Source: a virus. Taken from it: a DNA stretch of 42,546 nt. Positions 4,331 to 25,921 of the stretch are shown here, one piece after another. The translations under genes were made by a program, and so were the position numbers. The notes beneath the pieces were generated by a model that searched no databases, had not been told where the DNA came from, and saw only the letters and a list, made by a program, of their open reading frames with translations. The stretch's first letter is position 1; every line of letters begins with the position of its first letter. The stretch is from positions 1 through 42,546 of the IMG/VR virus record IMGVR_UViG_3300031902_000020. One strand, 5' to 3'.

Positions 4331-4768
4331 TCAGCGCACCTTGAATGATTCAACGCCCATGCCACAACTGGTGCAGAATCGAGAAGCAATCCTCACGGCT
4401 TCAATGGCATCGGCGCCTTTGGCGAGAGCCCCAAGCGCATAGTCGCGCCCGCTTCCCCACGCGGCGAATTTCTCTTCCACGATTTGCCGAAAAGGAAGCT
4501 GCTTGAAACAGAACGGCTTTCCTTTGGGCGGAACGACAATAAGGCGGACCCAGTTTTCCTTGTCAGCCTGAGACGCAGGCCACAAAGAAGGAGTGGCGCC
4601 ATTCTTATACCACTCGACAAGAGCCAGACCGCGCTCATATTCCCCTGTGAAAGCAAGCACCGTGCTGTCTTCCAGCATGAAGATTTTCTTGGACTTCATT
4701 CGGAGATCGCCCTGCTGACCTTGGAGATCCGACGCAACTCTCTTGCCGTCCCAAACGACTACGCTCAT
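4331..4768 (-). CDS. Proteasome/HslV-like Ntn hydrolase
   Basis: 145 residues resembling the phage family annotated as proteasome beta subunit or HslV-like Ntn hydrolase. It begins MSVVVWDGKRVASDLQ, with the buried strand, the Asp (residue 14) and a later SKKIF lysine (27/28) where proteasome-type enzymes have catalytic Asp and Lys. The conserved AAWGSGRDYALGAL segment and the Cys-rich end (FCTSCGMG) also fit. HslV uses an N-terminal Thr; here removal of Met would expose Ser2, which might act as nucleophile. No ATPase partner (HslU) is present. It starts just after the preceding gene with an AAAGGA ribosome site. The family call is fairly secure; protease activity and substrate are inference. 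Confidence 0.8.
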   Translation of the reverse strand: MSVVVWDGKRVASDLQGQQGDLRMKSKKIFMLEDSTVLAFTGEYERGLALVEWYKNGATPSLWPASQADKENWVRLIVVPPKGKPFCFKQLPFRQIVEEKFAAWGSGRDYALGALAKGADAIEAVRIASRFCTSCGMGVESFKVR

Positions 4769-5945: not shown

Positions 5946-6073
5946 CAGCAGTTCCTTATCAAAATGAGCAGCAACACGGCGGCCAAAAGCCCAAGGAAAA
6001 AGCCCCACGCCTGATTCCAAAAATCTCGCTTCGCAAGTTTCACGGCGTCAGGATCGCGGGGCCATTTGGGCAT
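5945..6073 (-). CDS. Small single-pass membrane protein (42 aa)
   Basis: A 42-residue gene starting at ATG 6073 with AGGAG nine bases upstream and ending in a TGATG overlap with the exonuclease start. The first 22 residues are charged (PKWPRDPDAVKLAKRDFWNQ) and the rest is one strongly hydrophobic segment (FFLGLLAAVLLLILI), so it should be a single-pass membrane protein with the N-terminus inside. Function unknown. Its ribosome site immediately follows the structured segment at 6093-6228, so its translation may be controlled by it. Confidence 0.65.
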   Translation of the reverse strand: MPKWPRDPDAVKLAKRDFWNQAWGFFLGLLAAVLLLILIRNC

Positions 6074-6092
6074 TGTCGGGTTCTCCTGAAAA

Positions 6093-6228
6093 GAATAGCG
6101 GCCCCTTGGTAGCCGTCCAGATTGGGATATTGATTTACTGGACCTGCGACCGTCCACGCGCCCCAAGGGTTCCCGGCCTCAGAGAAGATTCAGCTTATCT
6201 TGCCCAGCCTATTCTCTCGCCGCTATTC
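6093..6228 (-). ncRNA. Candidate structured RNA, three-way junction
   Basis: This fills most of the gap between the genes ending at 6241 and starting at 6073. Perfect complementary pairs by position: P1 6093-6102 with 6219-6228 (10 bp), P2 6103-6109 with 6163-6169 (7 bp, stacked directly on P1), P3 inside P2 6115-6120 with 6138-6143 (6 bp, 17-nt loop), P4 6181-6186 with 6212-6217 (6 bp). Only one base separates P4 from P1, so the arms form a compact junction. Read leftward, P1 is followed by UUUU and then the AGGAG of the 42-aa gene. It may be a cis-regulatory leader, an attenuator, or a free RNA. The stems are seen; the role is inferred. Confidence 0.5.
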
Positions 6229-6240
6229 AAAGATCAAATC

Positions 6241-7107
6241 CTATTCGTCAATGTCCTTCTCAGGCGCCGCATGAACCGCGCCACCGACCACGCTCTCACG
6301 GAACGCGGAGCATTCATCCAGGAGCTTCTCGCCGCCCAGGTCAAGCGCCCGCGCTTCGGACGCAAAGGCCCACAGGAGCCACGCGCCAAGCTCACCGCTG
6401 GTTTCCTCGCTGGTGAACCTGAAGGCCCGCCAGAACATCGGGAAGGCCCGCAGGCGACCGCTGGCATCCGTCTCGCGGAACATCTGGATATTGCTCGCCA
6501 GTTTCTTGGAGACTTTGAATTGGCTCTTGTTCAGGCCGAAGACGGCAGGCATCCAGGACTTGCCTTCATCCTGGGAGGCCATGCCATACCAGGCGCCAGA
6601 CATCACGACTTCATTGCCGCTGGGGAGAAGCTGATTCCCTTTGTCGTTCGGGGTGCATTTCAGGAGGATCGAGTCATCCGTCCCGTGGAACGCCGCCGGG
6701 GTGCGCTTGGGGGTCCACTCCACGTATTCGCGCCGATAGGCGCAAGGGATAAAGAGGAAACCCTTCTCGCGGTTGACGACGGAATTATCCATCGTGAAGA
6801 TAAAGTCGCCGGGATGAGCGCCCTTGATGTATTCCGGGCGGCTCTTGATGACACACGGGCTCGTTCCCTGCGCGAGCTTAATGCGCGGGATGGCCATGTC
6901 CTGCTGATCGAAGTCGCTTCCCGCCTCTTCCTTGTAGGAGGCCCACTTGCTCACGGCGCCGGGAGCAGGCGTGGCGACGGATGCTTTGGGCACCGTGGCG
7001 ACAGCCGTAGAGACTTCCGGGTGAGGCAGAAGCGGCACTTCGGCTTCCGGCTCCTTCTTGGGACGAGGCGTCTTCTTGACCGCCGCTTTGGTATTCGTAG
7101 CTCTCAT
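6241..7107 (-). CDS. Putative ssDNA-binding-like replication protein
   Basis: 288 residues. The first ~60 are Lys/Pro/Ala-rich and probably disordered; the core starts at DFDQQDMAIPRIKLAQGTSP and continues with alternating strands (GDFIFTMDNS, GFLFIPCAYRREYVEW); the last residues are acidic (PEKDIDE). The layout of a beta-rich core with a short acidic tail is that of many phage single-strand-binding proteins, and the gene lies among replication genes. The family itself is one I know only as conserved phage protein, so ssDNA binding is an inference. The ATG at 7107 has a GAGG ribosome site. A structured segment follows its stop. Confidence 0.5.
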   Translation of the reverse strand: MRATNTKAAVKKTPRPKKEPEAEVPLLPHPEVSTAVATVPKASVATPAPGAVSKWASYKEEAGSDFDQQDMAIPRIKLAQGTSPCVIKSRPEYIKGAHPGDFIFTMDNSVVNREKGFLFIPCAYRREYVEWTPKRTPAAFHGTDDSILLKCTPNDKGNQLLPSGNEVVMSGAWYGMASQDEGKSWMPAVFGLNKSQFKVSKKLASNIQMFRETDASGRLRAFPMFWRAFRFTSEETSGELGAWLLWAFASEARALDLGGEKLLDECSAFRESVVGGAVHAAPEKDIDE

Positions 7108-7125
7108 GGTGCAGTCCTCAATAGG

Positions 7126-7140
7126 GCGGGCACGGCCCGC
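7126..7140. other. Perfect hairpin before the ssDNA-binding-like gene
   Basis: GCGGGC at 7126-7131 pairs perfectly with GCCCGC at 7135-7140 around a 3-base loop. It lies in the 44-base gap just upstream of the start at 7107. No U tract follows in the leftward direction (CCTATTG), so it is a poor terminator; an RNA stability or processing hairpin, or an operator, is more plausible. Confidence 0.5.
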
Positions 7141-7151
7141 GTGGTGAATGA

Positions 7152-7346
7152 TTATTCGTTAAGATTGCGAATCACAAGATCCATGATTTTATAGGCCGTC
7201 TGGTAATCATCCCAAGCTTTCAAGACTTCAGGAAATTCAGCTTTGACTTTTTCTCGATCAAAACTGCACCAGCGAGTGATGTCGCCTTTTTCTTGCCAAA
7301 AATAAGCAAGCATCGCGGCCATATCCAATCGATCTTCCAGAGTCAT
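7152..7346 (-). CDS. Small hypothetical protein
   Basis: 64 residues, acidic and almost wholly helical by eye (EDRLDMAAMLAYFWQEKGDITRW). No family recognised. The ATG overlaps the stop of the upstream 183-aa gene by ATGA, so it is translated by coupling. The hairpin at 7126-7140 follows its stop. Confidence 0.65.
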   Translation of the reverse strand: MTLEDRLDMAAMLAYFWQEKGDITRWCSFDREKVKAEFPEVLKAWDDYQTAYKIMDLVIRNLNE

Positions 7347-8353: not shown

Positions 8354-10914
8354 ACCTTTTTCTCCATCGACAATTGAAACTCGTCCTGAGACTGCGGCCC
8401 TTCCTCCGGCCCGACAATCCCTAACCCCCTGGCAATCTCCCAAGTCTTATAGGTCACAAACTTCTGCATCGGGCCGCTGATCGTTTTCTTGCCGTCCCAG
8501 ACCACACTCCGTTTGGAAATCACGCCGAGAAACTTGAGGCAATTGCCGACGCTGTAGTCGCTGATCGTCACACCTGAGTCACCGACAAACCGGCCCTTGA
8601 TCTCTTCCAACAGTTCCATGTAGGCGAAGGGCACGTTCCATTCCGCTTTACCCGTAAGCAACCGCTTCGCCACCCAATGCACCAGGGAATCGCCGCCTAG
8701 CTTATGATTGCTGGTGGCGTCGATAAGGTCTTTCTTCTTCTCTTCAGCCTTGGTGAGCCACCAGTTATCCCCGGCCTTCCAAGCCGCCACAGCGGCACTC
8801 CAGAAGGCATTCCTTTGCTCTGCCGTGAATGGCTTGATGATGAAGTTGGTCGAGGTCGCACACCGGATGATGAACATGCGCCGGTTGCCTGTGGGGTCTT
8901 CCAGGATGGCGTCTCCGTTATCCGTGCCGATGAACGAACAACGCCGGGGAAACGCCACCGAACCGTTGAGGTATTTTAACTGAACGACATCAGACCGAGT
9001 AGAGAGGAACGCCTTGAATTCCGTGAAGCGTTTGAAAGCCCGTTCAACTTCCGGGATTTCGTTGATCCAGCCCCGTTGAATCATCGCCACGAATGACACG
9101 GTGTCATACCGTCCAGTTGCCGGGGGACTGATTTCCACGCTCATCCAGGAGCTAGGCACCATGGAACGAATGAGGGTTGACTTCTGGGAGCCCTGCTCGG
9201 CAAGCCAGATCATCATATCGTCCATCTTGGCTGTGTCATCAAACTCAGTGCGAGGAGTAAGAGCCCGAGCCACGGTGCCTACGGCAAAATGCTTGAGATA
9301 AAGCGCCGCCGTTTTAACAGTCGATGCCTCAACGCCTAGATGCTCGATCACCACGCGCTCAAACTCGATGTCATTTCGCTGGGGACTCGGCAGGCTCTCC
9401 AGGTATTCAGTCGGCAGGTAGCGCTTGTTCAATAGGGACGCCGTGCAGATCATCCGGTAGAGTTTCGTGTCGTCTGGCTTGGTGCTGAACTGATAGTCGG
9501 CGGAAAGCTGAATGAGGACACGCCCGATCATTTCATCCGTAAATGGCTTGTCATCCAGGAATGTAATGCCCCGCATTTCGCAGAACCAGAGATTCTGGAA
9601 GCGTTCGTCGTGCTGGACGATATACCAGAGGTTCGCCGCCGTGGCAGGAAACTTGATGATGATGCCGCCCGTCTTCTTATTATCTGTCACCACGGAATCA
9701 GGCAACGTGTCATCGCGCCGGATCATCTGCCAGGGCACCCAAGGCCCCAGGCCATTCTCAGACTCCTGCTGAATGGTGCGGATCTTCTGAGCCCGTTCCA
9801 CTGCTGCCTGGGGCATCTGAGGCGTCCACGCGGCGGCATATTTGCTCAGAATCTCCTGAGTCAGAACCGGATCGGCGCCGTCCATGGTGCCGAGGATCAG
9901 TTCCTTGAGGGTGATCTTATGAGAATGCTGACACTGGAACACCGGCCAAGCGCCATCGCCATTCTCATAGATCACCGCTTCATCTTTGTGCGATTTACCG
10001 TGAGTGTGTTCTTCAGCCAGCGGACAGGTGCATGGGTATTTCACCACACCGTCCGGTTGCTTCCGAGGCTTGCCAATCTTGCAGCCAATCTCAGCCAACG
10101 CGGCTCGAAGATCGAGGGTTTTAAAATCAATCATGAAGCGCTGATACCAGTCCTCCAGATCACCGGAATCAAAGTCAGAATTGATGCCTAACCGTTTCCG
10201 GTCTTTCTTCAGGAGCTTCCGGGCTTCCTTGATTCCCGTCGCCTCACGCGAAGGCATCGCCTCCATGTTCAAGTCAGGTGCGAAGGGGACACAATTGACT
10301 GTCTCCAGGACCGGCGCCCCCATGGGCATGTAAACGTGGCCCCCCACCCGCAGGCCTACCCCGATGTCGATGGCCTGCGCCAGAGGCTCCAGAAACGTCA
10401 CCAACTCCGTGAAAGCCTTGGGGGCGTCTTGCGGGTCGATCTCACGATCCAGGGGCACCAGCGCCCGCGCACGGAGGTTCTCCGGAGTGCTGCTGAGCGT
10501 CTCGTAAAGCGCCGCGAGAATCCCGGCCTGCTGGAAGATGTCCCGGATTTGAGTGATCTTCGTCACAGAGGTATTGACCCGAATCTTGGCTTTTACAATA
10601 TGACCGGGCTTGTGCTCATCCTCATTTGGCACGAAGGTTGCTACTTCTTCGTAGAAGTCCAGATCCACATGCAGGCATCTGACTTTTAAAACCGCCTCGC
10701 CATTCGCCGCCGGGGCGTCTGGGTTGAGGTAAGCACCGATGAAGCCTGGGGCTTGATCCTTGCGAGCATCGGCGGTCGAATTGACCGGCTTGGAACAGTA
10801 GCGATTGTTCTCGGGGTCAATGAGAAAGTCGACGAACTCCCGCCAGTTGGCCACTTCATGCGCGACGAAGGCCTCGGGCTTGGATGATCGCGGAATCGTT
10901 GTGAACCGCATCAT
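8350..10914 (-). CDS. Primase-helicase: AEP primase plus VapE-like P-loop ATPase
   Basis: An 854-residue protein (start ATG 10914, AGAAGGTG ribosome site, overlap with the upstream stop). The N-terminal part resembles archaeo-eukaryotic primases: LHVDLDFYEE (Asp84, Asp86), then SSTPENLRARALVPLDRE. A Cys/His group CTCPLAEEHTHG...FQCQHSH (about 295-332) may bind zinc. From about 560 the virulence-associated E (VapE/D5-like) ATPase follows: LAEQGSQKST (P loop, with Q where Gly is usual before Lys), WINEIPE (Walker B), LSTRSDVVQLKY and FPRRCSFIGTDNGDAILEDPTGNRR. Proteins of this layout prime and unwind DNA at phage origins. The order of domains is clear; polarity and loader needs cannot be read. 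Confidence 0.88.
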   Translation of the reverse strand: MMRFTTIPRSSKPEAFVAHEVANWREFVDFLIDPENNRYCSKPVNSTADARKDQAPGFIGAYLNPDAPAANGEAVLKVRCLHVDLDFYEEVATFVPNEDEHKPGHIVKAKIRVNTSVTKITQIRDIFQQAGILAALYETLSSTPENLRARALVPLDREIDPQDAPKAFTELVTFLEPLAQAIDIGVGLRVGGHVYMPMGAPVLETVNCVPFAPDLNMEAMPSREATGIKEARKLLKKDRKRLGINSDFDSGDLEDWYQRFMIDFKTLDLRAALAEIGCKIGKPRKQPDGVVKYPCTCPLAEEHTHGKSHKDEAVIYENGDGAWPVFQCQHSHKITLKELILGTMDGADPVLTQEILSKYAAAWTPQMPQAAVERAQKIRTIQQESENGLGPWVPWQMIRRDDTLPDSVVTDNKKTGGIIIKFPATAANLWYIVQHDERFQNLWFCEMRGITFLDDKPFTDEMIGRVLIQLSADYQFSTKPDDTKLYRMICTASLLNKRYLPTEYLESLPSPQRNDIEFERVVIEHLGVEASTVKTAALYLKHFAVGTVARALTPRTEFDDTAKMDDMMIWLAEQGSQKSTLIRSMVPSSWMSVEISPPATGRYDTVSFVAMIQRGWINEIPEVERAFKRFTEFKAFLSTRSDVVQLKYLNGSVAFPRRCSFIGTDNGDAILEDPTGNRRMFIIRCATSTNFIIKPFTAEQRNAFWSAAVAAWKAGDNWWLTKAEEKKKDLIDATSNHKLGGDSLVHWVAKRLLTGKAEWNVPFAYMELLEEIKGRFVGDSGVTISDYSVGNCLKFLGVISKRSVVWDGKKTISGPMQKFVTYKTWEIARGLGIVGPEEGPQSQDEFQLSMEKKV

Positions 10915-11187: not shown

Positions 11188-11203
11188 TGGCATTCATTTT
11201 GCG
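11188..11203 (+). promoter_or_regulatory. Sigma-54-like -24/-12 element before the lysis genes
   Basis: TGGCATTCATTTTGCG matches the sigma-54 pattern TGGCAY-N5-TTGC, with the GG and GC dinucleotides exactly 12 bases apart. It points at the lysis cassette, about 100 bases upstream of its first start codon. It matches the elements of the array at 19166-19310. Binding by sigma-54 is inferred. Confidence 0.5.
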
Positions 11204-11303: not shown

Positions 11304-11780
11304 ATGCAGCTTTCGCCACACTTCAGCCTGGAGGAACTGAGTCTCAGTTCAACGGCTGCACGGCATGGCATCGACAATACCCCGCCTCCCGAGGCTGTGA
11401 CGGAACTCACAAGGCTCTGTGAGACCATCCTGGAACCGCTGCGAACGTTTCTGAATGCCCCGCTCCACATTGACTCGGCATTCCGATGTCTGGCAGTCAA
11501 TACCCTGGTGAAGGGCGCCAAGACCTCCCAGCATATGCTCGGGCAGGCTGCTGACGTTATTCCCGTGGGCTGGGATCTGAAGGTTGCGCTTGCCAAGATT
11601 CGCCTCAGTGATCTTCCTTTCGACCAATTGATCTTTGAATGCGGGGCCTGGATTCACATCTCCTGTGCTGCGCTCGGCGCCACGCCTCGCAGGATGGTGC
11701 TCATTGGCTCCCTGGTGGACGGGAAATGGGTTTACACGCCTTTCAAAGCGGGTTCGCCTGCGGATACAGCCCAATCATGA
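11304..11780 (+). CDS. Endolysin, peptidase M15 family
   Basis: 158 residues of the M15 (D-Ala-D-Ala carboxypeptidase-like) fold. SQHMLGQAAD gives His77 and Asp84, and FECGAWIHIS gives Glu112 and His118, the usual metal-binding and catalytic set. Such phage enzymes cut the peptide cross-links of peptidoglycan. There is no signal peptide, so release should depend on the holin in the same cassette. The first helix region (HFSLEELSLSSTAARHGIDNTPP) is typical of M15_3 endolysins. The next gene starts within its stop codon (ATGA). The ribosome site is weak (GGGTGAC). Confidence 0.9.
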   Translation: MQLSPHFSLEELSLSSTAARHGIDNTPPPEAVTELTRLCETILEPLRTFLNAPLHIDSAFRCLAVNTLVKGAKTSQHMLGQAADVIPVGWDLKVALAKIRLSDLPFDQLIFECGAWIHISCAALGATPRRMVLIGSLVDGKWVYTPFKAGSPADTAQS

Positions 11781-12136
11781 GCACGTCCCTTGAACAGGCC
11801 TTACCCATGTCAGGACCCAGCCCTACCTATCGCTCCGCCAATGGCATAGCAAAAATGGCTCAGGCCAAAGAGGAACGAGGCCTCTATCGTCTTGGCATGA
11901 TCGCTGCTTTCTGCACCCTAGCGCTCTCGTTACTCGGCTCAACGGCTGGGTTTTTTGTCTGGGCGCTCGGACAGGAACGCCGAATGACCATCGTCGAGCA
12001 GGGGATCAAACAAGAACACGACGCCAATGCCAAGCAGGATACCGATACCCAGCGAGAGAATGAACGGGCTGAGGCTTGGCGCATTCGGATGGAAAAGAAA
12101 ATGGACGATCTTCTTCAATCACAGCGGAGACGCTAA
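11777..12136 (+). CDS. Membrane protein of the lysis cassette (spanin- or holin-like)
   Basis: 119 residues from the ATG overlapping the endolysin stop. A polar N-terminus of about 37 residues is followed by one strong transmembrane segment (LGMIAAFCTLALSLLGSTAGFFVWAL, about 39-64) and then a highly charged helical tail (KQEHDANAKQDTDTQRENERAEAW...) suited to a coiled coil. One membrane anchor plus a long helix resembles an inner-membrane spanin, but an accessory holin is equally possible. Position between endolysin and holin supports a lysis role. Confidence 0.6.
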   Translation: MSTSLEQALPMSGPSPTYRSANGIAKMAQAKEERGLYRLGMIAAFCTLALSLLGSTAGFFVWALGQERRMTIVEQGIKQEHDANAKQDTDTQRENERAEAWRIRMEKKMDDLLQSQRRR

Positions 12137-12145
12137 GGAGGCAGT

Positions 12146-12559
12146 ATGGGACTTGATGCGCTCGGAATCGGAGCCATTGCGGATCTGGCCAAGGATCTAG
12201 TGGGGCGGTTCTTCCCGGACAAGACGGAGCAGGAAAAGGCTCAGATGAGTCTGATTCTCACCACTATGCAAAACCAGATGGCCATGAACCAGGGCCAGAT
12301 GGATATCAACAAGATCGAGGCTGCAAACCCGACCCTCTTTGTTTCCGGCTGGCGTCCTTTTGTGGGGTGGGTCTGCGGATCGGCTTGCGCTTGGAACTGG
12401 ATCGGATTGCCGGTTGCCAATTTCCTGGCAGCTGCTTTCAAACATCCCATCGGAATTGCTCCCGCCGATCTCACCCAAATGCTGCCTCTTCTGATGGGGC
12501 TTTTGGGGATGGGCGCCCTTCGCACTTATGAAAAGACGCAAGGCGTTGCCGCCAAGTAG
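12146..12559 (+). CDS. Holin, 3TM family
   Basis: 137 residues with the hallmark SGWRPFVGWVCG of the three-transmembrane phage holin family (3TM_Phage_holin). A charged N-terminal half (FFPDKTEQEKAQM, then a Met/Gln-rich helix) precedes hydrophobic segments at about 66-90 and 107-127. It starts nine bases after the previous gene with a consensus TAAGGAGG ribosome site. It should make the membrane lesion that lets the M15 endolysin out. Confidence 0.85.
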   Translation: MGLDALGIGAIADLAKDLVGRFFPDKTEQEKAQMSLILTTMQNQMAMNQGQMDINKIEAANPTLFVSGWRPFVGWVCGSACAWNWIGLPVANFLAAAFKHPIGIAPADLTQMLPLLMGLLGMGALRTYEKTQGVAAK

Positions 12560-12698: not shown

Positions 12699-13478
12699 CT
12701 AAGCGAGGATGGTGAATCGTTTCGCGTTACGGTCAGCGGCTTCACGGAGCCACGCATAGACCATGGGTAGTTCGGATTCGGTGATCTCCAGGACTTCGAC
12801 GCCCCGGCTGCAACCTTTGCGGGGATGCAGCATCCAGATCATCAAGCCCAGCTTCGTCTGGTCGCTCGTGTAGACGGTGCCCTGGTCACAGTGGGGGCAA
12901 TGCCCGTAGACGCCCAGGCGCTTTGCTCTGGCTTCGATGAGAATCCAACGGTTGATACAGTCGTGTCCCATGCCGCGCCCACGCTGCCAAGCGTTGACTT
13001 CATCGGCGCTGGGGATATGACCATCTTCGCGGGGCTGCCATCCCTTGCCAGGGATGAAGGTCTTAGCGAGGTCGTGAAGCCTCCCAGAATCCAGGAGGGC
13101 TTGAACCTCATCCTGGATGATCTGGTCGTGCCAGCCCTTCCCGGTGGGGCTCTGATGATCGTAGAACGAATTGGCAATCTGCTCGGTTTCAGGATTGAGC
13201 CCCGAGCCGTGGCAGGCTTCGCAGTCCTTGGAGTCGCGCTCCAAGAAGAAGTAGAAGTTCGCGCATTCGTTCAGGGCGTCCAGCCCCCAGGGACCGAAGT
13301 CGCCCCAAGTGGTGTGGGACTGGGAGGACGACCATCCCCCATCCTCCCTGGGGCTGGGCATGTAGTCCTCGCCAACACCCCACGAAACGTAGCCGGGGTT
13401 CGCCTCCATCGCGGAAAGTTGCCACGGGGCAGGACTGTAATTTTTGAGTTCATCGTGGTCAAGGTGACGGGTTCGCAT
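12699..13478 (-). CDS. Conserved hypothetical protein with DnaJ-like zinc motif
   Basis: 259 residues from ATG 13478 (AAAGG ribosome site; a TTG two codons upstream is also open). It contains CEACHGSGLNPET and later GHCPHCDQGTVYT, two CxxC pairs spaced as in DnaJ-type zinc fingers, separated by a conserved block (QDEVQALLDSGRL...EVNAWQRGRGMGHDCINRWI). I know this layout from phage and proteobacterial genomes as a conserved protein of unknown role. It is the last gene of the leftward accessory block, followed by the terminator at 12592-12628. Its leader carries one copy of the repeated CAGATGGACA element. Confidence 0.75.
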   Translation of the reverse strand: MRTRHLDHDELKNYSPAPWQLSAMEANPGYVSWGVGEDYMPSPREDGGWSSSQSHTTWGDFGPWGLDALNECANFYFFLERDSKDCEACHGSGLNPETEQIANSFYDHQSPTGKGWHDQIIQDEVQALLDSGRLHDLAKTFIPGKGWQPREDGHIPSADEVNAWQRGRGMGHDCINRWILIEARAKRLGVYGHCPHCDQGTVYTSDQTKLGLMIWMLHPRKGCSRGVEVLEITESELPMVYAWLREAADRNAKRFTILA

Positions 13479-13501
13479 GAGCAAGCCTTTCGAGGGTCGT
13501 G

Positions 13502-13511
13502 CAGATGGACA
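13502..13511 (-). repeat. Repeated leader element, copy 1
   Basis: TGTCCATCTG on the minus strand. The same decamer lies at 14426-14435, 14796-14805 and 14985-14994, each shortly before the start of an accessory gene. Copies 1 and 2 share the longer plus-strand word GGGTCGTGCAGATGGACA. Confidence 0.7.
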
Positions 13512-13514
13512 TGC

Positions 13515-13886
13515 TCAGGCTTCCGCCCGAATGCCCTTGTAATCAGGGTTGGTGAGAAAATCGCGGAAGGTCAGATCGGGCAGGCAGTCCGACAGATCGA
13601 GGTAGCGGTGATAAACCCGCTTGGCCTTCGGGAATCGCTTCTCCAAGAAGCTGGCCTTGGCCGCCGCTTCACCCTTGGGGGTGCATTGGAACCAGTCAAA
13701 CTCGGTCTTGTCGCTGGCCCGGCGGTAGCACTCCACCAGGCCCAGGGCCTCCAATTCGACCATGCGGGTGTCGCCGGGGTTCATCGCGGCATAGTTCCGG
13801 TAGGGCTCGGGCTGGCGCTTCCAGAAACGGTCATTGATGCCCAGCATGTGCCGGAGCATGTCGAGGTGGCGTTCAGACAGTTCCAT
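13515..13886 (-). CDS. Conserved hypothetical phage protein
   Basis: 123 residues from ATG 13886 (GGAG ribosome site). The start MELSERHLDMLRHMLGIND with a following PYRNYAAMNPGD and LEALGLVE...FQCTPKGEAAA has the look of a winged-helix or MarR-like small protein and is frequent in phage accessory regions; the role is not known to me. The longer open frame up to 14069 runs antisense-free but inside the next gene and is rejected. Confidence 0.65.
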   Translation of the reverse strand: MELSERHLDMLRHMLGINDRFWKRQPEPYRNYAAMNPGDTRMVELEALGLVECYRRASDKTEFDWFQCTPKGEAAAKASFLEKRFPKAKRVYHRYLDLSDCLPDLTFRDFLTNPDYKGIRAEA

Positions 13887-13914
13887 CGGGGCTCCGATCT
13901 TGGACAGGATTAGA

Positions 13915-15067: not shown

Positions 15068-15241
15068 TCATCGGTGAGATTTTAAAAGGGGCTCGCGCTG
15101 ACTGTCTGGAGGCCATCTAGGACGCTCGGGGGCCTTGGGGTAGTAGAGAGCCACCAATAGCAAAACGAGTGCCACAAAGGCCACCAGGAGGCAATCGGCG
15201 GCAAAGCGAGTGCCTCGGGAGGCATGACGGGGGAGGGTCAT
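15068..15241 (-). CDS. Small single-pass membrane protein (57 aa)
   Basis: 57 residues from ATG 15241, overlapping the upstream stop by ATGA. A short basic N-terminus (TLPRHASRGTRF) precedes a strong hydrophobic segment (CLLVAFVALVLLLVALYY), then a Pro/Arg-rich tail. Topology should be N-in, one pass. Function unknown. Confidence 0.6.
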   Translation of the reverse strand: MTLPRHASRGTRFAADCLLVAFVALVLLLVALYYPKAPERPRWPPDSQREPLLKSHR

Positions 15242-16552: not shown

Positions 16553-16969
16553 CTAACGGGTTCCATTGTCGCGGTAATGATCTTCAATGCTTCCCATGTC
16601 CGGGCGGCCCTCAAGGACATCCTCAGAAGGCTCCACATCCCAGCTACCCTCAAGGACATCCTCGGAGGGTTCCACATCCCAGCTACCCTCAAGCAGCATT
16701 CGGCCTTGATCTTCCCCAGCCATGACGATCATGGGTGTATAGCCTAGGGGGTCATCCAGGAGGCTCAGGGCGCATAGCTGGACTAGCTCATGAGGCGTGA
16801 GGGTCTGGCGCGTCACCGTGACCCTTCCAGCGCCCGGCGCGGGGGCAAAGCGAAAGTAGTCTTCTAGTGCTAGCTCTAGGCCGATGTCTATGATTTCTGA
16901 ATCAAAATCGAGGAACGTTTTTCCATCGACTTGCGGCATTCCGCGGTTGACTGAAAATCCGGTAATCAT
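16553..16969 (-). CDS. Hypothetical protein with duplicated acidic repeat
   Basis: 138 residues from ATG 16969, overlapping the upstream stop by ATGA. The N-terminal ~95 residues look folded (FSVNRGMPQVDGKTFLDFDSEIIDIGLELALEDYFRF, then VTVTRQTLTPHELVQL). The C-terminal part is a tandem repeat LEGSWDVEPSEDV x2 with a decayed third unit (LEGRPDMGSIED). The tail is acidic and probably extended. Function unknown. Confidence 0.65.
   Translation of the reverse strand: MITGFSVNRGMPQVDGKTFLDFDSEIIDIGLELALEDYFRFAPAPGAGRVTVTRQTLTPHELVQLCALSLLDDPLGYTPMIVMAGEDQGRMLLEGSWDVEPSEDVLEGSWDVEPSEDVLEGRPDMGSIEDHYRDNGTR
16580..16693 (-). repeat. 39-bp tandem repeat inside a coding region
   Basis: Two near-identical 39-bp units at 16616-16654 and 16655-16693 and a diverged third unit at 16580-16615. 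The unit is a whole number of codons, so copy number can change without breaking the frame. Few differences between units 1 and 2 suggest a recent duplication. Confidence 0.8.
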
Positions 16970-17520
16970 GACGGCTCCTGAATCTCGGGACATTCAGGCA
17001 AAAACTGATGAATGATATCGGAGTGGACGTCACTGGCGGCGGCCCAGGCGGCCCAGGCGTCACTGGCGGCCCTGGCGGCGGCCCAGGCGGCGTCACTGGC
17101 GGCCCTGGCGACGGCTCTGGCGGCCCTGGCGGCGGCCCAGGCGGCGTCACTGGCGGCGTCACTGGCGGCGTCACTGGCGGCGGCCCAGGCGGCGTCACTG
17201 GCGGCAATTAAATCTTGTTCGGTAGCATTACCGATGGCAAAACGCTCAGCTACCTCCACAGCATTGCGACTCCGAGGATCGGTCAGGAGATCCCAGACCT
17301 TCTGGCCATTGGCCAAAGGGGTTTCCCGGACAAAAGCACATGCGATGAGACGATAATTTTGGGGATCATCGTATTTCATCGTATCCAGGAGCCAGAGCAT
17401 CCAATCTGCTCGGCGACAGTTCCGCCAGGCAGTGGCAAGATCGGGCTGGGTTGCGGCCCATACCTTGGCCTCGTCACAAGCACCCAGGCGGATTAAAAGA
17501 TCGTTGAGGGGTTCTGACAT
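16966..17520 (-). CDS. Imm5-like protein with Ala/Trp repeat region
   Basis: 184 residues. Residues ~10-50 (RLGACDEAKVWAATQPDLATAWRNCRRADWMLWLLD) match the domain often annotated as Imm5-like putative immunity protein, found widely in bacteria and phages with a following stretch of AWAAA/SDAAWAAAR repeats. Here that stretch spans about 106-164 and is nearly pure Ala with Ser-Asp, Trp and Arg. Despite the label, a toxin partner is not visible nearby and the true role is not established. AGGAGGTATGAA precedes the start. Confidence 0.65.
   Translation of the reverse strand: MSEPLNDLLIRLGACDEAKVWAATQPDLATAWRNCRRADWMLWLLDTMKYDDPQNYRLIACAFVRETPLANGQKVWDLLTDPRSRNAVEVAERFAIGNATEQDLIAASDAAWAAASDAASDAASDAAWAAARAARAVARAASDAAWAAARAASDAWAAWAAASDVHSDIIHQFLPECPEIQEPS
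17029..17205. repeat. GC-rich low-complexity repeat coding AASDAAW units
   Basis: GGCGGC, GGCGTCACT and GGCCCAGGC units alternate over about 180 bases. All are multiples of three, so the region can expand or shrink in frame. The opposite strand reads as a collagen-like Gly-Pro/Gly-Val-Thr frame by coincidence of composition. Confidence 0.8.
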
Positions 17521-18286: not shown

Positions 18287-18565
18287 TTAATCCGCATACA
18301 TACTAAGCATTTCCGCGACCGCTTCCTCTTCCGTCTCATACGGCCCGCTCCAATCAGTGCAATCCATATAGCCTGGTGCTGAGAGACGCGAGAAATAGCC
18401 CGCCTCGTTATCTTCATCATCTTCATTCTGGAATTCACCAGCCATGAAGCTTTGCACGTCTGGCAGCATGAATCCATCATTCAATTCAGCCAGACTATTT
18501 TCTACTTCTTCCACCGTCCAGCCAAGGATCTTGGCGATTGTTTCGAGCTGTTGATAGGTTAACAT
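18287..18565 (-). CDS. Acidic hypothetical protein, first of the accessory block
   Basis: 92 residues, strongly acidic (pI low: FQNEDDEDNEAG). It opens with a helix-turn-helix-like stretch (LTYQQLETIAKILGWTVEEVENSLAEL) and ends with DWSGPYETEEEAVAEMLSMYAD, a tail also found in other small phage and bacterial proteins. Acidic size and early position recall DNA-mimic or anti-host proteins, but this is speculation. A perfect CAGGAGG ribosome site is present. Confidence 0.65.
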   Translation of the reverse strand: MLTYQQLETIAKILGWTVEEVENSLAELNDGFMLPDVQSFMAGEFQNEDDEDNEAGYFSRLSAPGYMDCTDWSGPYETEEEAVAEMLSMYAD

Positions 18566-18589: not shown

Positions 18590-18605
18590 TGCACCAAGTG
18601 TGCCA
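18590..18605 (-). promoter_or_regulatory. Sigma-54-like element driving the leftward accessory block
   Basis: On the minus strand TGGCACACTTGGTGCA has the TGGCAC -24 box and a GTGCA -12 box (one mismatch to TTGCA), with GG and GC exactly 12 apart. A start about 12 bases downstream would give a leader of roughly 15 bases containing the CAGGAGG site of the 18565 gene. The geometry is that of a real promoter. Confidence 0.5.
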
Positions 18606-18779: not shown

Positions 18780-19040
18780 GAAAAGTGATTTTAAGCTGAG
18801 AGTGTGTGAAAGGGGCTGAAAGACTAAGGATCAATGGGTGAAAGAAAGTTAAAAGCATACATCAAGCTGTGAGGTAGCCTTTCAGGCCTTTCACCCCTTT
18901 CACCCCTGAAAGGCCGACTTTCTAACTTTTCCTATATTTTATTTTTTCTCTCTATCTTGTATTATACAACATTATTATTTTCCCTAATGTATCCGTAAAG
19001 AATAAGTATATGAAAGGGATGAAAGGTCTAAGCTTTCATG
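18780..19040. other. Candidate replication origin or enhancer: TGAAAG boxes and AT-rich stretch
   Basis: Ten TGAAAG or CTTTCA boxes start at 18807, 18817, 18839, 18879, 18888, 18897, 18907, 19011, 19020 and 19033. Most neighbours within a cluster are 9-10 bp apart, about one helix turn. Between the second and third clusters lies a very AT-rich stretch (about 18915-19010) with the dyad TTGTAT-T-ATACAA at 18957-18969. Repeated boxes beside easily melted DNA is the classic plan of an iteron origin; the boxes could also be enhancer sites for the sigma-54-like promoters just downstream. No gene is present between 18566 and 19523. Confidence 0.5.
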
Positions 19041-19165
19041 GGATTTACAAACCATAATGAGTGCATGATATGGTCTGCAAGCCCCTGAATGTTGATATAC
19101 CGTGCTGTATAGCAGTATGCGGGGCGCTAGGCACGAGGCGAGGGACGAACGCTAATAAGCATGAA

Positions 19166-19310
19166 TGGCATGACGATTGCATGGCAAGACTTGGCACGAG
19201 CATTGCATCAAGCAACTTGGCACGTTATTCGCTAGACAAGAGTTTTGGCATTATCGTTGCTTATCGCCAAGCTCGATTCGGCTGACGAATGAATTGGCGC
19301 GATCTATGCT
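19166..19310 (+). promoter_or_regulatory. Tandem array of five sigma-54-like -24/-12 elements
   Basis: TGGCATGACGATTGCA (19166), TGGCACGAGCATTGCA (19192), TGGCACGTTATTCGCT (19218), TGGCATTATCGTTGCT (19246) and TGGCGCGATCTATGCT (19295). All keep GG and GC 12 bases apart, as the sigma-54 holoenzyme needs; elements 1 and 2 match the consensus TGGCAYG-N4-TTGCA fully. Repeat periods are 26, 26, 28 and 49. A CAAG or CAAA word follows most elements by 1-4 bases. All point at the packaging/virion operon. An initiator-binding iteron array would look similar. Confidence 0.55.
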
Positions 19311-19523
19311 TGACAAACGGGTCATGCACAAAATGAGCCAAGAGACCCTGGGGTGGTAGTTTTCGCCTGTGCCTGGTGGTGGGGTGAAGTGCTTGAATTT
19401 TACCGCCGTCGCGCATACCCCAGGCCCTACGCAATATACGAAGACTTTCGTAGCATTTCCTTTAAAATCCCCCTACCCCCCGCTGTAGTTTTGACTTACA
19501 CTCCAGACATTCGTGGAGGCCCC
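19311..19523 (+). promoter_or_regulatory. Untranslated leader of the virion operon
   Basis: About 210 bases between the last array element and the first start codon. It contains a hairpin TACGAA (19437-19442)/TTCGTA (19447-19452) with a 4-base loop, and a longer-range pair CCTGGGGT (19347-19354)/ACCCCAGG (19417-19424). A GTGGAGG ribosome site closes it. I see no gene in it. Confidence 0.4.
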
Positions 19524-19709: not shown

Positions 19710-20248
19710 TGCCGCGAGAGAAGCCCCTCCCGGACTTTTCTCCGGACTTCGAAGCCTCGTATCGTGAGGTCTTCACCACCCGCGACGGTTATTCTCTGAC
19801 GCCAGCGCAGCGAGCTAAAGCCAAGAAGGAAGCCTATACCGAGTGGCTTGAAGACTTAAAAGCAGACGAAATCCCCGAAGATCCCATCGCAGATCCAGCC
19901 GACTCACCTGCCGAGGCCCTGGAAAAAATCGTCTCGCATTCCCTAAAGTCCATGACCCCATCAGATGCCATCAAGCATCGTTCCCAGCTTTTACGGTTCG
20001 CTGGGGATACTGTCCTTCAGGATCGTAAGGCCAAGATTGAGAAGCAGTCTCAAGCCTCAGGTCTGGCGACGATCATGGAGCTTTTTCGGCAGGCGGCGTC
20101 CGGGGAAGGCAAGCGCGGGCCAGGATGGATCGACGCCGTGATGCTACCGGCCCTCAGCATGACGGAACAGGCCGAAGCGGCTGTAGATGTCATCGAAGGC
20201 CTTCAAATCGCTCCTGACCCCCTTTCCGCTCAACGGGAGGCCATGTGA
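19709..20248 (+). CDS. Putative small terminase subunit
   Basis: 179 residues, highly charged and helical. The segment SLTPAQRAKAKKEAYTEWLEDLK in the first third could hold a helix-turn-helix; the centre (SDAIKHRSQLLRFAGDTVLQDRKAKIEKQSQASG) resembles the phrase 'A...R...a...iL...gk...' found in small terminases. The call is based mainly on position: it overlaps the large terminase start by GTGA. If correct, it recognises phage DNA for packaging. Confidence 0.6.
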   Translation: MPREKPLPDFSPDFEASYREVFTTRDGYSLTPAQRAKAKKEAYTEWLEDLKADEIPEDPIADPADSPAEALEKIVSHSLKSMTPSDAIKHRSQLLRFAGDTVLQDRKAKIEKQSQASGLATIMELFRQAASGEGKRGPGWIDAVMLPALSMTEQAEAAVDVIEGLQIAPDPLSAQREAM

Positions 20249-21771
20249 GTGCCTACGTCGATCAAGACGACAAGGACTACTGGGAACGCTTTCAGAGCGC
20301 GACGGTGGTTCGGATGGCCCTTGACCCGGTGGAAACCGCCGCGAAACTCTTCGGAAGGCTCTCGGAGAAACAGAAGGAAATCGTTGGTTTTGAAGAGGAT
20401 GAAATTTTCCTCGGGGGTGGCGCCGGGTCGGGCAAGACCCGAGGCGTCATAATGGCGTGGGCGGCCCCGGCCTTTGAGTTCCAGGCCCGAGGGTTCAAAT
20501 ACGACGCCCTGGCCATCCGGCGCACGTTTCCGCAACTCAAGGAGATCATCGCACTGGGCAAGGAGATGCTCCTGCCCCTCGGAGCGACTTGGCACGAGGC
20601 CAGCAAGACATTTATTTTACCAGGCGGGTCGAGTCTGGAGTGTGGTTACTGTGAGCGTGATGATGATCGCTACCAGTATACGGGCCGTGCGTGGGCGCTG
20701 ATCTTCGTGGATGAAATCCAGCGTTATGCTACGCCGGTTTTTTACGATTGGATCTTCAGTCGTCTCCGGGCGCCTATCAAGGAAATCGCGGGGAAGCTGT
20801 GGCGGCTCCCGCTGCGCGTCTTCTCGACGGCCAATCCCAAAGGGCCAGGCAACCACTGGCTCAGGAAGCGGTTTATTGACACGACAGGCGTCAATGGGGG
20901 CGTGACCACGCGCACGGTGGACACTGTGACGCCAGAAGGCGACCCTATCACCGTGACTCGCCGCGTCCGGTTCCAGCACAGCACCGTATTGGATAATCCG
21001 TGGCTTAGAAACACGGATTACGTCCGAAACCTGATGCTCCTGCCTGAAGCGGATCGCCGGGCGCTCCTGGAAGGTGACTTCTACATCGTGGAAGGCGCCT
21101 TTTTCAGTGAGTTTAACCGTAAAATCCATATCGTGAAGACGTTCAAACCGCCTGCGGACCTATCTTTGATCAATGCGGGGGATTGGGGGACGGCGAAGCC
21201 CTCTCATTTTGGGTGGATGCAGGAGCTTTCCAACGGGGAATTCCACGTTTTCAGCGAGTATTCCACGCGGGACGCCGAAGACTGGAGCAAGGGAACCTGG
21301 CGAAATGCGACGGATGTCGCTGAAGACTTGATCCGCATCGAGCATCGGCAGGCCTACGACGTATCCGAGCGATGGTTGGACTCTGCCTGCTGGGCGGATG
21401 AGGGCACGGGAACCAACGTAGGCGAGATTTTCCAGATGAAAGGTTTGTTCTTCCAGAAGTCGGTGAAGGGCCGCAATCTCAAGGCCCGCAACCTGCGGGA
21501 ACTGATGAAAGTGACCAACGGAAGTTCGCGGCTGAAGATTCATGACCAATGCAAATACCTGATTTGGGAGATTGAAAACCTTTTGACGGATGAACAGGAC
21601 CCCAGCCGGTGGGACGAGCGCATGTCGGATCATGGCGTGGACATGCTCCAATACGGAACGGCGCGAAACATCATTGCCTTGGGCGGGGATGTTCTTCACC
21701 ATCAGAAACAAGAGGCTTACCAGGCGAATCGTGCCAAGATGGCAGCTATGCGAAAGCGAGGAACGGCATGA
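20245..21771 (+). CDS. terL: Terminase large subunit
   Basis: 508 residues, GTG start with GGGAGG upstream. The ATPase part has Walker A GGGAGSGKT at 57-65, Walker B LIFVDE at 152-157 and coupling motif FSTANP at 193-198. The RNase H-like nuclease part shows Asp313 (AGDWGTAKP), Asp379 (RWLDSACW) and the Asp pair near 462-466 (SDHGVDMLQYG). This is the packaging motor and DNA-cutting enzyme at the portal. Both halves look intact. The portal gene starts in its stop codon (ATGA). Confidence 0.95.
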   Translation: MSAYVDQDDKDYWERFQSATVVRMALDPVETAAKLFGRLSEKQKEIVGFEEDEIFLGGGAGSGKTRGVIMAWAAPAFEFQARGFKYDALAIRRTFPQLKEIIALGKEMLLPLGATWHEASKTFILPGGSSLECGYCERDDDRYQYTGRAWALIFVDEIQRYATPVFYDWIFSRLRAPIKEIAGKLWRLPLRVFSTANPKGPGNHWLRKRFIDTTGVNGGVTTRTVDTVTPEGDPITVTRRVRFQHSTVLDNPWLRNTDYVRNLMLLPEADRRALLEGDFYIVEGAFFSEFNRKIHIVKTFKPPADLSLINAGDWGTAKPSHFGWMQELSNGEFHVFSEYSTRDAEDWSKGTWRNATDVAEDLIRIEHRQAYDVSERWLDSACWADEGTGTNVGEIFQMKGLFFQKSVKGRNLKARNLRELMKVTNGSSRLKIHDQCKYLIWEIENLLTDEQDPSRWDERMSDHGVDMLQYGTARNIIALGGDVLHHQKQEAYQANRAKMAAMRKRGTA

Positions 21772-23714
21772 TAATCCCTGGCCTCGATCTTCAATACACG
21801 GTTGCATGGCTGATGGACACTTGGAAGCGTGAGAAGCAGCGGCGCCGGCTCATGGAGACGACGGTCTGGCGAGACTGCTTCCTCTTCGCGAAGTCCAAAT
21901 TTGGTGCGAATCCTGAAGAGGGCGTGAGCGGCGACGATCTCTCAACGCGCTTCGTTCCGGACTCGGAAAATGGCGTGGATACGGTGTCGGCCCAGTTGAT
22001 CCGGCTTACCATGCCAAACGCAGACTTCTTCATGGCCATTCCGATGCACCCTTCGGAGACGCAGAATGGCGCGGCGGCTATTACCTCTTTGTTAAAATAC
22101 TATCATCGCCGAAGCAAGTTCAGACTCAATGCACTTCAGATCGTGAAACAGGCGGCGACATGCGGGTCAGGCGCGTGGGCGATGGACTGGACGACTCAGG
22201 CGGGCATGGTGCCCGATATCGTTCGCATGAAGATGATGTATCAGCAGCAGCAGGCTCAGGCCGCGCTCACGGGCGAGAAACCCAAACGGCTTCCGGCGCT
22301 TCCGCCCATGAAGCGCGTGGTGAATTATCAAGGACCTACCATCGAGTCAGTGAATATTTTCGATATGGTGGTGCAGACCGACCGCTCCTATGAGAGCGCG
22401 GCTCGCCTCATGAAGTTCCGGCGTGATGATGCCTACCTGAAGGAACTGAGCAAGGAAGACGACTTCGGATACGCCCGTTATACGATTCCGAAGAACACGG
22501 AACCTAGCCTCGATCCGGATACGAGCGACTCCATCCGGATCGAGTTGAATCAAGCGTCAGGCCTGGCGATGCTTCCGATGGGGAGCGGCACGAATCAGAT
22601 GAATGAATTGATCCAGGTCATGGGTGATGTGCCGGTGAAGTTCAAGGACGGAGCCGAAGTCACTATCCCGTGCTGCGTGGCGACGCTGCTGAATCAGAAA
22701 GACATCATCCGGTTGGAGGTAATGCCTACCAGCACGAGCCGGATTCCCATGGGTATCTACTCATGGAACCCGAGGCCGAATGATCCGTATGCGGGAGGCG
22801 TCCTGGAGCGGAATATGGGACTTCAGGACGCGGTGAACACGCGCATGAACCAGTCGATCATGGCCAATGGCTTGGCAATCAATCCTATGTCATTCTACAA
22901 GCCTGACGGTCTCTTCGATCCGAGTGAATTTGTGTCATTCCCTGGCGCTTGCTATCCTTACATGACCACGAAGCCTGAGCCCTATGTCATTCCTGACCAA
23001 GCGATGCTCGGTTTCAATGAAGTTAAAATGCTTCAAGGCATGTTCTCAGACGGGATCGGGGCGCTGATTAACAATAGTCAGGGCGATCAGAGTGCGACGG
23101 AAGCAACTATTGTAGCGAGCCTCGGTCAGTCTCGCTTTGGGCTGATCGCTGAGAATTTCGAGCAGAGTTTCCTGGAAGAAGTGATCACTCAGGAATTGCT
23201 CATGGCTCAGATGTTCATGACCAAGGAAGAGATGATTCGTGTGGTCGATCCGATGGACCCGCAGGCGCTTCCTTCGGTGATGCCGGTTGATCAGACTGTG
23301 ATTCAAGGTGAGTATCAGGTCTTCATTGCCGGTATGCTCGACATGGCGCAGAACCAAGCGAAGATGGGCGAGTTGATTTCCTTAACCCAGGCGTTTGGAG
23401 CCATTCCCCCGTTGCAGCAAACCATGAACTGGCAAGCCTACGCTGCAATGATTCTCAGGATGAAGGGTTTCGGGGAATTCATTCCTTCCCTGTTCCCTCC
23501 CCAGCCCCAAGGAGGCATCAATGGAAACCCCGCAACTTCACCCCAAGTTTCCGCAGGGCCCGGAGGTCCGCCGTCTCCTGGCGGAACTCCAAACCCATCC
23601 GGGCTGGCCTCTGGTCCTGGCATGGTTGGAGGCGGCAGAAGCCCAGGCGAAGGTCCCGGTGCCGATAACCCCGGCGGACGGCCACCAATGGCCGTTCAAG
23701 CGGGCCTGGGCTGA
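21768..23714 (+). CDS. Portal (head-tail connector) protein
   Basis: 648 residues of the T7 gp8/N4 head-to-tail connector kind. Recognisable parts: the start with a long helix (YTVAWLMDTWKREKQRRRLMETTVWRDCFLFAKSKFG), DTVSAQLIRLTMPNADFF, AATCGSGAWAMDW, and GVLERNMGLQDAVNTRMNQSIMANGLAINP. The last ~80 residues are Gly/Pro-rich and overlap another gene in a second frame (23521-23714). The frame is open further upstream, but ATG 21768 overlaps the terminase stop and is the natural start. Confidence 0.9.
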   Translation: MIIPGLDLQYTVAWLMDTWKREKQRRRLMETTVWRDCFLFAKSKFGANPEEGVSGDDLSTRFVPDSENGVDTVSAQLIRLTMPNADFFMAIPMHPSETQNGAAAITSLLKYYHRRSKFRLNALQIVKQAATCGSGAWAMDWTTQAGMVPDIVRMKMMYQQQQAQAALTGEKPKRLPALPPMKRVVNYQGPTIESVNIFDMVVQTDRSYESAARLMKFRRDDAYLKELSKEDDFGYARYTIPKNTEPSLDPDTSDSIRIELNQASGLAMLPMGSGTNQMNELIQVMGDVPVKFKDGAEVTIPCCVATLLNQKDIIRLEVMPTSTSRIPMGIYSWNPRPNDPYAGGVLERNMGLQDAVNTRMNQSIMANGLAINPMSFYKPDGLFDPSEFVSFPGACYPYMTTKPEPYVIPDQAMLGFNEVKMLQGMFSDGIGALINNSQGDQSATEATIVASLGQSRFGLIAENFEQSFLEEVITQELLMAQMFMTKEEMIRVVDPMDPQALPSVMPVDQTVIQGEYQVFIAGMLDMAQNQAKMGELISLTQAFGAIPPLQQTMNWQAYAAMILRMKGFGEFIPSLFPPQPQGGINGNPATSPQVSAGPGGPPSPGGTPNPSGLASGPGMVGGGRSPGEGPGADNPGGRPPMAVQAGLG

Positions 23715-24844: not shown

Positions 24845-25921
24845 ATGGCTCGCACCACTTCAGTCACCACTGGCGCACTTCCTTCAATTGCCACCTACAT
24901 CTGGCGCACGGGCCTCGCCGTCGCCATGCCTCTGCTTTGCTTCGAAAAGTATGGGCAGAGTATCAATATGCCTGCGAATTCGGGCAAGACGATTACCTTC
25001 CGCCGTTTCGAGAAGCTGCCTCCCACGGGCGGCGCGGGCGATTACACGGCCACCACGCCGAGCCGTGTCCTGGTGGAAGGCACCACACCGGATAACGTGA
25101 CGCCGACCGTCACGGATATCGTGTTCACCCTCACTCAGCTTGGCGCTTACTACCAGTATTCGGATATCTCCGGCTGGGTGAACGAGGTGAGCGTCGATCA
25201 GAACCTGATGGCTCGCACGGGTGAGAACATGGCGGAAGTCGTGGATTACTACTACCGCGACACCATTCTCGGCGGCTCGCGCTACTACCGCATCCTCGAA
25301 TCCACCAACAACACGGCGACTCCCAGCCGCGTTTTGATCGCCGGGAAGATCGCCAAGGCCCTTCCCATCGCCGTCATTGGCCGCGATCTCTTTGCGGCTG
25401 ATGCCAAGGTGGTGAAGGCTATGAAGGGATCGAGCGATGGCTTCGGGACGAGCGCCGTTCGTGCGTCCTTCGTGGCCGTGGCTCATCCGGATCTCTGCGC
25501 GGATCTGGACTCCATCGTTCCCACGGTGGTCAATGGCTCCGATGGCTTCACGCCGGTCGCCAAATACGGTTCTCTCACAGATCTGCTGCCGGGTGAGTAT
25601 GGCACTTTGAAGAACGTCCGTTTCATTCAGTCCACCCACGGCAAGATTTGGGCTGGCGCCGGGGCGGCTGTGGCTTCCACGGGTGAGAAGTCCACGGGCG
25701 GTCAGATTGACGTTTACGGCGCCGTAGTCACGGGCCAGGATGCCTATTGCTGCGTGAAGTTCAGTAAGGACTCCGGCAAGGTGATTTACGTCAGTGCCGA
25801 CAGCAATTCGAAATACGATCCGCTGAATCAGTTCAGCGTCCTCGGGTGGAGGGCCACTGTAACGGGTGGCATCCTGAATGACGCTTGGCTGAAGCGCCTG
25901 GAGTGCGGCGTCACCGCCTAG
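24845..25921 (+). CDS. Major capsid protein, N4-gp56 family
   Basis: 358 residues. The opening (MARTTSVTTGALPSIATYIWRTGLAVAMPLLCFEKYG), the NSGKTITFRRFEKLPP strand, GTTPDNVTPTVTDIVFTLTQLGAYYQYSDISGW and a C-terminal YVSADSNSKYDPLNQFSVLGWRATVTGGILNDAWLKRLE are those of the N4-gp56 capsid family (HK97-like fold). An AAGAGG site precedes the start and a strong hairpin follows the stop, as expected for the most abundant virion protein. Confidence 0.92.
   Translation: MARTTSVTTGALPSIATYIWRTGLAVAMPLLCFEKYGQSINMPANSGKTITFRRFEKLPPTGGAGDYTATTPSRVLVEGTTPDNVTPTVTDIVFTLTQLGAYYQYSDISGWVNEVSVDQNLMARTGENMAEVVDYYYRDTILGGSRYYRILESTNNTATPSRVLIAGKIAKALPIAVIGRDLFAADAKVVKAMKGSSDGFGTSAVRASFVAVAHPDLCADLDSIVPTVVNGSDGFTPVAKYGSLTDLLPGEYGTLKNVRFIQSTHGKIWAGAGAAVASTGEKSTGGQIDVYGAVVTGQDAYCCVKFSKDSGKVIYVSADSNSKYDPLNQFSVLGWRATVTGGILNDAWLKRLECGVTA

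Follow-up and report, generated by a model that had tools for sequence, protein, structure and literature searches.

What is the function of five short repeated elements that stand in the non-coding stretch between the two arms of a virus genome? The window, by which we mean the whole stretch of DNA analysed, is a virus record of 42,546 bases with a 127-base direct terminal repeat. The left arm lies on the minus strand and includes genes for an SNF2-type helicase, DNA polymerase III alpha, an RNase T exonuclease and a VapE-like primase-helicase. The right arm lies on the plus strand and includes the terminase, portal and major capsid protein genes, among others. The array of elements is located between the two arms, ~215 bp ahead of the likely first start codon (19524), which leaves a long leader. 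A preliminary description proposed that the elements are sigma-54 promoters of the virion operon, with an iteron array as the alternative. Sigma-54 is the stress and nitrogen sigma factor of the host and works only with an ATP-driven activator. The usual view is that phages rely on the housekeeping sigma factor, on sigma factors of their own or on polymerases that they encode.

Several other features of the window are recorded here for completeness, with the gene calls on this and the other viral loci being simple calls made in this study. An HslV/proteasome-like peptidase (PHROG 1040; 4331-4768, minus strand) adjoins the DNA polymerase III alpha gene. In the protein encoded at 16966-17520 on the minus strand, the C-terminal half contains a long repeat rich in alanine (ASDAAWAAA...). 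Plus-strand ORFs of up to 373 aa at 6073-7194 and 12825-13913 lie opposite minus-strand left-arm genes and are probably shadow ORFs. Neither tRNAs nor Rfam features were found in the window.

A motif search recovered all five plus-strand elements at the starts given by the preliminary description, each with GG-N10-GC. The periods of 26, 26 and 28 bases were likewise confirmed and are followed by one of 49. The five elements and the single site at 11188 all share T-G-G-C and the final G-C without variation. The strict word TGGCAY-N5-TTGC occurs six times in the whole window (10627 +, 11188 +, 15160 -, 19166, 19192 and 19246). The earlier count of four, all between genes, therefore needs correction on both points, as the match at 10627 sits antisense inside the 872-aa VapE-like gene. 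According to the gene list made here, non-coding DNA makes up ~9% of the genome and contains five of the six matches. Positions of the sites and of the genes around them are collected in Table 1.

Table 1 Sigma-54-like sites and neighboring features of the window, with the repeated motif of a relative.
Feature	Position	Strand	Evidence or remark
Strict match, antisense within VapE-like gene	10627..10641	+	Probably not functional
Single strict sigma-54-like site, divergent gap before lysis cassette	11188..11202	+	Score 10.4, lower than array
Endolysin (M15 peptidase), first gene of lysis cassette	11304..11780	+	PF08291, 2e-18; PHROG endolysin, 3e-33
One-mismatch sigma-54-like site within ORF 11639-12136, before holin	11893..11907	+	Score 19.9; coding, may be chance
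Holin	12146..12559	+	PF11351, 1e-19; PHROG holin
Strict site TGGCACTCGTTTTGC	15160..15174	-	Non-coding by the gene list made here
Second copy AGGCACTCGCTTTGC, one mismatch	15201..15215	-	41 bp from the 15160 site
First left-arm gene, 92 aa, no assigned function	18287..18565	-	Start ~26 bases after the 18591 site
Single sigma-54-like site TGGCACACTTGGTGC before first left-arm gene	18591..18605	-	Score 17.9, third best of the window
CTTTC/GAAAGG repeats, direct and inverted, around an AT-rich stretch, origin-like	18850..19050		Repeat inspection
Sigma-54-like element 1, TGGCATGACGATTGC	19166..19180	+	Strict; Salmonella-matrix score 20.2, top of the window
Sigma-54-like element 2, TGGCACGAGCATTGC	19192..19206	+	Strict; Salmonella-matrix score 15.3; top score with viral-array matrix
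Sigma-54-like element 3, TGGCACGTTATTCGC	19218..19232	+	One mismatch (TCGC), GG-N10-GC intact; Salmonella-matrix score 15.2
Sigma-54-like element 4, TGGCATTATCGTTGC	19246..19260	+	Strict; Salmonella-matrix score 15.5
Sigma-54-like element 5, TGGCGCGATCTATGC	19295..19309	+	Two mismatches (GCGCG, ATGC), GG-N10-GC intact; Salmonella-matrix score 13.6
Weak sigma-54-like site beside array, TGGCTCATTTTGTGC	19326..19340	-	Salmonella-matrix score 13.0; low confidence
First well-conserved virion-operon gene, 179 aa	19709..20248	+	Homologues 61-62% identical, same place in relatives
Terminase large subunit	20245..21771	+	PHROG 979, 2e-30
Portal / head-tail connector	21609..23714	+	PHROG 332, 3e-25
Major capsid protein	24845..25921	+	PHROG 1357, 6e-48
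TAWWTAGG copies in a syntenic relative	L284 (G002) 2157-3360; L285 18572-18668	-	Before lysis genes; gap ahead of virion operon

The copy number had been held to exceed chance, and shuffling agrees with this claim. The six strict matches compare with a mean of 0.26 in dinucleotide shuffles of the window (maximum 3; n = 1000). Neither a pair of strict matches within 60 bp nor a triple within 100 bp on one strand occurred in any of these 1000 shuffles, and shuffling the local region 5000 times never gave three strict matches on one strand. Coincidence in a GC-rich, repetitive intergenic region could appeal to partly repetitive flanks and to the fact that only three of the five elements are strict, but it is refuted by these shuffles, and its probability is close to nil.

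The elements also resemble sites defined by experiment in bacteria. Intergenic sigma-54 sites of the Salmonella Typhimurium RpoN regulon have been located by ChIP-chip (PMC3844500), and we built an independent matrix from 28 of these intergenic sites only. The matrix found 10 sites of at least 13 bits on the two strands of the window, compared with 1.2 ± 1.1 in shuffles. All five array elements are among these ten best sites, two of the ten lie inside genes, and the best sites score level with the median Salmonella site (19.6). The array thus combines the GG-N10-GC core with a fit to experimentally defined sites beyond the core word. In common with the -24/-12 promoters of S. Typhimurium (PMC3844500), it has GG-N10-GC, TGGCAY-N5-TTGC, G or A after CAY, A or T after TTGC, and a mostly non-coding location. 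Unlike them, it is arranged in tandem at 26-28 bp, belongs to a phage and has no recognizable enhancer, and such triples turned up just seven times in the 257 Gb of bacterial and archaeal sequence scanned. Judged by their sequence, the array elements are genuine, non-random sites of the sigma-54 type, mostly non-coding and placed at the heads of gene blocks, and their predicted specificity for sigma-54 binding is well supported.

Sites of this type are found at the head of the virion operon, as had been claimed, and matching ones stand ahead of the lysis cassette and of the first left-arm gene. The sites at 19166-19309, 11188 and 18591 are each upstream of and directed at these genes, so that both late plus-strand modules and the left arm are provided with one. 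The 18591 site scores higher than the weakest Salmonella training site (17.9 against 16.5) and is followed by about ten bases, an AGGAGG and the ATG at 18565, some 26 bases after the site. Judging by these distances, it is spaced where a sigma-54 promoter should be. There are also elements of another kind. A sigma-70-like TTGACA-N17-GATCAT, read by eye, stands directly before the endolysin gene, and the search for simple sigma-70 promoters at the inter-arm junction returned two, not above shuffles.

The preliminary description regarded a multi-copy sigma-54 block as unusual for a podovirus. This view needs correction, as comparable arrays are common in environmental phage contigs. We scanned IMG/VR for two copies of TGGCAY-N5-TTGC 5-35 bases apart and, in a further scan, for three copies 8-16 bases apart, and the counts are lower bounds. 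Tandem pairs were found in at least 120 contigs, compared with 19 for the reversed word, whose matches are nearly all coding repeats. After coding repeats were removed and array regions at least 75% identical were merged, at least 129 distinct non-coding arrays of 2 to 10 copies were obtained, nearly all of them viral and a handful from bacterial assemblies. The search word fixed the GG-GC spacing, so this spacing in other phages is given by construction. Positions outside the search word are therefore the informative ones: among the matches listed, the base after CAY in viral arrays is G or A at frequencies of 0.79 and 0.19 (0.68 and 0.32 in Salmonella), and the base after TTGC is A or T at 0.49 and 0.42 (0.50 and 0.43). 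One-mismatch copies within the arrays vary mostly at T-15, T-26 and C-23, while G-24 and G-13 are nearly fixed; this is consistent with sigma-54, on numbers too few to weigh.

Podoviruses of the T7 and phiKMV groups possess a single-subunit RNA polymerase and regulate late genes from multiple promoters. The array resembles these systems in its repeated short promoter elements for late genes and differs from them in that its elements match a host sigma factor and the window has no phage RNA polymerase. Each large ORF scanned either belongs to some other family or has no match, in line with the earlier statement that no phage RNA polymerase or sigma factor is recognizable. Promoters of a phage single-subunit polymerase that resemble sigma-54 sites by accident would explain tandem non-coding elements directed at late genes, but no such polymerase gene was recognized among the window ORFs scanned, and the motif is common to several lineages and equal to the bacterial profile. 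We consider this explanation highly improbable.

The placement of the arrays is orderly, and their direction is mixed. Among the matches listed, the spacing between adjacent copies is phased, with 25-29 bases commonest, followed by 35-38 and 41; 35 of 70 arrays lie at junctions between divergent genes, compared with 61 of 344 for all gaps of at least 150 bases; and in 48 of the 49 cases with a terminase gene within reach, transcription of this gene leads away from the array, which places the array at the head of the terminase operon. Among the same listed matches, the arrays themselves point away from the terminase side in 36 cases and toward it in 12, and in same-direction gaps they run against the downstream gene in 24 cases and with it in 13 (ORFs of at least 100 aa), or in 19 and 9 with a coding-potential caller. 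The orientation counts (36 away, 12 toward) led us to reject the idea that the arrays always drive late genes.

Copies on the opposite strand occur near 25 of the 129 arrays, again among the matches listed, and some form dyads. In L038, L059, L067, L071, L092 and L112, forward sigma-54-like sites alternate with reverse ones, and the two face each other across short spacers (3-7 bp in some). These facing-site dyads could be two-way promoters or the binding site of a dimer. In bacteria, bidirectional promoters have overlapping elements on the two strands. The arrays of some other phages are similar in having forward and reverse sites face to face with a 3-7 bp spacer, and differ in having sigma-54 rather than sigma-70 elements; the window has only one weak minus-strand site beside its array.

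Neither RpoN nor an enhancer-binding protein is encoded in the window record, and no enhancer-binding protein was found in 48 other virus records. A phage-encoded RpoN or activator was therefore rejected for the virus records searched. Beside the arrays, no shared dyad or NtrC-like enhancer was found; GCAC-N-GTGC shows a small excess downstream of the arrays, which may derive from the sites themselves.

Bacterial and archaeal genomes (257 Gb) were also scanned in full, and only 20 triple-copy places were detected. The score at non-searched positions is positive for 7 of the 20, and the other 13 are mostly repeats within genes. RpoN is encoded in all seven assemblies with sigma-54-like triple arrays, compared with 6 of 13 contrast genomes (hypergeometric, ~0.02). 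At least two of the loci, L160 and L171, are phage- or prophage-like. L160 has a terminase related to those of HMO-2011-type phages. The terminase of phage HTVC115P is 67% identical to that of L160, and HTVC115P has no site; its host is Pelagibacter, which is not known to have RpoN. A Methylococcaceae assembly (L171, 164-5484) carries six sigma-54-like copies with a 40-41 bp period by an integrase and a phage-type primase, and is a prophage-like island with the same array device. As bacterial triple arrays are few and some of them are phage- or prophage-like, the tandem arrays are largely viral. Among named phages, a DNA similarity search with the array region gave no match, and none of 15 records related to the window or to the array phages has an array, the number of strict sites per record being 0 to 2. 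The search for a named phage with an array was thus negative, which leaves no cultured model at hand.

The lack of an activator gene or enhancer in the records searched, the orientation counts and the tandem spacing, which is probably too tight for simultaneous use of all copies, leave room for a decoy role. Instead of starting transcription, the arrays would then bind the sigma-54 polymerase of the host and keep it in closed complexes, so that host sigma-54 genes fall silent or the polymerase is parked on phage DNA. Many tandem copies whose orientation does not track the adjacent genes would suit such a trap, as would the rarity of comparable triple arrays in bacterial genomes, where single activated promoters are the rule. 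The arrays are placed at operon heads rather than anywhere, however, and in the window the lysis cassette and the first left-arm gene each have a single site ahead of them, well spaced in the latter case. Two to ten copies would also be few against the cellular sigma-54 pool until the phage genome multiplies. We therefore regard a decoy as unlikely.

The relatives of the window phage bear on both a promoter and a replication role. The same array is present in a near-identical contig (L007). Four contigs with terminases 84-86% identical (L010-L013) have no sigma-54-like array, and the two of them that are near full length and syntenic with the window (G002 and G005; TerL identity 84-85%) give 1 and 0 Salmonella-matrix hits, as chance predicts. 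Repeats kept with the GG/GC spacing lost, which would have spoken against promoters, were not seen in the relatives; the repeats are wholly absent, and other repeats occupy the same gap. In one relative (G002), TAWWTAGG occurs 11 times, compared with once for a reversed control, with four copies in the inter-arm gap and four directly before the lysis genes. By its position this may be a different, lineage-specific promoter-like element. The motif differs between relatives and yet stands in the same two late-gene places, and in this it resembles exchangeable promoter elements.

Replication origins with iterons are known from phages and plasmids, such as lambda ori, RK2 and pSC101. If the array were part of such an origin, its copies would be tandem sites for a phage initiator, or operators for a phage regulator, next to the CTTTC/GAAAGG repeats. 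This reading agrees with the position of the tandem repeats, which lie at a divergent junction and close to an AT-rich stretch, with the helical phasing of the copies (25-29, then 35-38 and 41), with other repeats at the same place in relatives, and with opposite-strand copies, some in dyads, near 25 of the 129 listed arrays. One feature of an iteron origin is present: tandem repeats by an AT-rich unwinding region are found at 18850-19050. Another, a repeat that is specific to the phage's own initiator and changes with it, is lacking, as the same motif is found in unrelated phages and no cognate initiator is suggested. The terminases of the array phages form at least 14 clusters at 30% identity, and the consensus recurs across them next to different genes, which makes one phage protein unlikely as the common factor. 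One shared gene for a cognate binding protein was sought and rejected; podovirus genes are common to many array phages, but at least a quarter of the array phages do not share them. In addition, VapE is 72-74% identical in relatives without the sigma-54-like motif. The recurrence in unrelated phages, together with non-searched positions that equal the sigma-54 profile, makes the iteron reading less likely; we hold it to be doubtful, if the best of the alternatives. The CTTTC/GAAAGG repeats are, by their arrangement, better iteron candidates than the sigma-54-like array. GAAAGG repeats are retained in the relatives L012 (490-780) and L013, and L010 (2770-3060) has TGGAAACA repeats instead, so this region is an origin candidate whose iterons may have changed between relatives.

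We therefore favor, as the more probable reading, that the array is a set of sites for the host sigma-54 (RpoN) holoenzyme and acts, in multiple copies, as the late promoter of the virion operon, a device gained separately by several lineages. Within the window, a promoter role would be the simplest reading of sites that precede the late modules and the left arm. After infection, host sigma-54 holoenzyme would form closed complexes at the array sites, to be opened by an enhancer-binding ATPase of the host, while the single site at 11188 would serve the lysis cassette and the one at 18591 the beginning of the left arm. Phage expression would thereby follow a host signal, for example nitrogen or envelope stress. 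The host activator must be assumed, as no virus-encoded enhancer-binding protein and no shared enhancer were found. We infer binding and initiation in vivo, the identity of the activator and the dependence on RpoN. Further observations count against promoters: the relatives of the window manage without the sites, the leader is long, a sigma-70-like word precedes the endolysin gene, and two of the ten matrix hits are inside genes. The arrays are frequent in environmental phages and absent from syntenic relatives, and the device was thus probably gained separately in several lineages; the at least 14 terminase clusters likewise argue against inheritance within a single family.

In the open-access literature, we found no report of tandem sigma-54 arrays in phages. 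Loss of rpoN has been reported to hinder lytic phages indirectly, via glutamine and RpoS (PMC8744999). Among viruses, tandem sigma-54 arrays may, with rather less confidence than for the window itself, represent a widespread and largely virus-specific control device. Many lineages would have placed several RpoN sites separately at the hub between early and late genes, coupling expression to host sigma-54 activators that respond to nutrient or envelope stress, and relatives would have changed to other motifs at this place. That viral arrays are numerous and hardly ever found in bacterial chromosomes suggests that viral gene expression is tied to the host sigma-54 switch. If the arrays are promoters, a particular state of the host would be awaited or exploited by many environmental phages, and the arrays would be a sequence mark from which this can be predicted. 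If they are traps, they would be a takeover device against the nitrogen and envelope regulon of the host.
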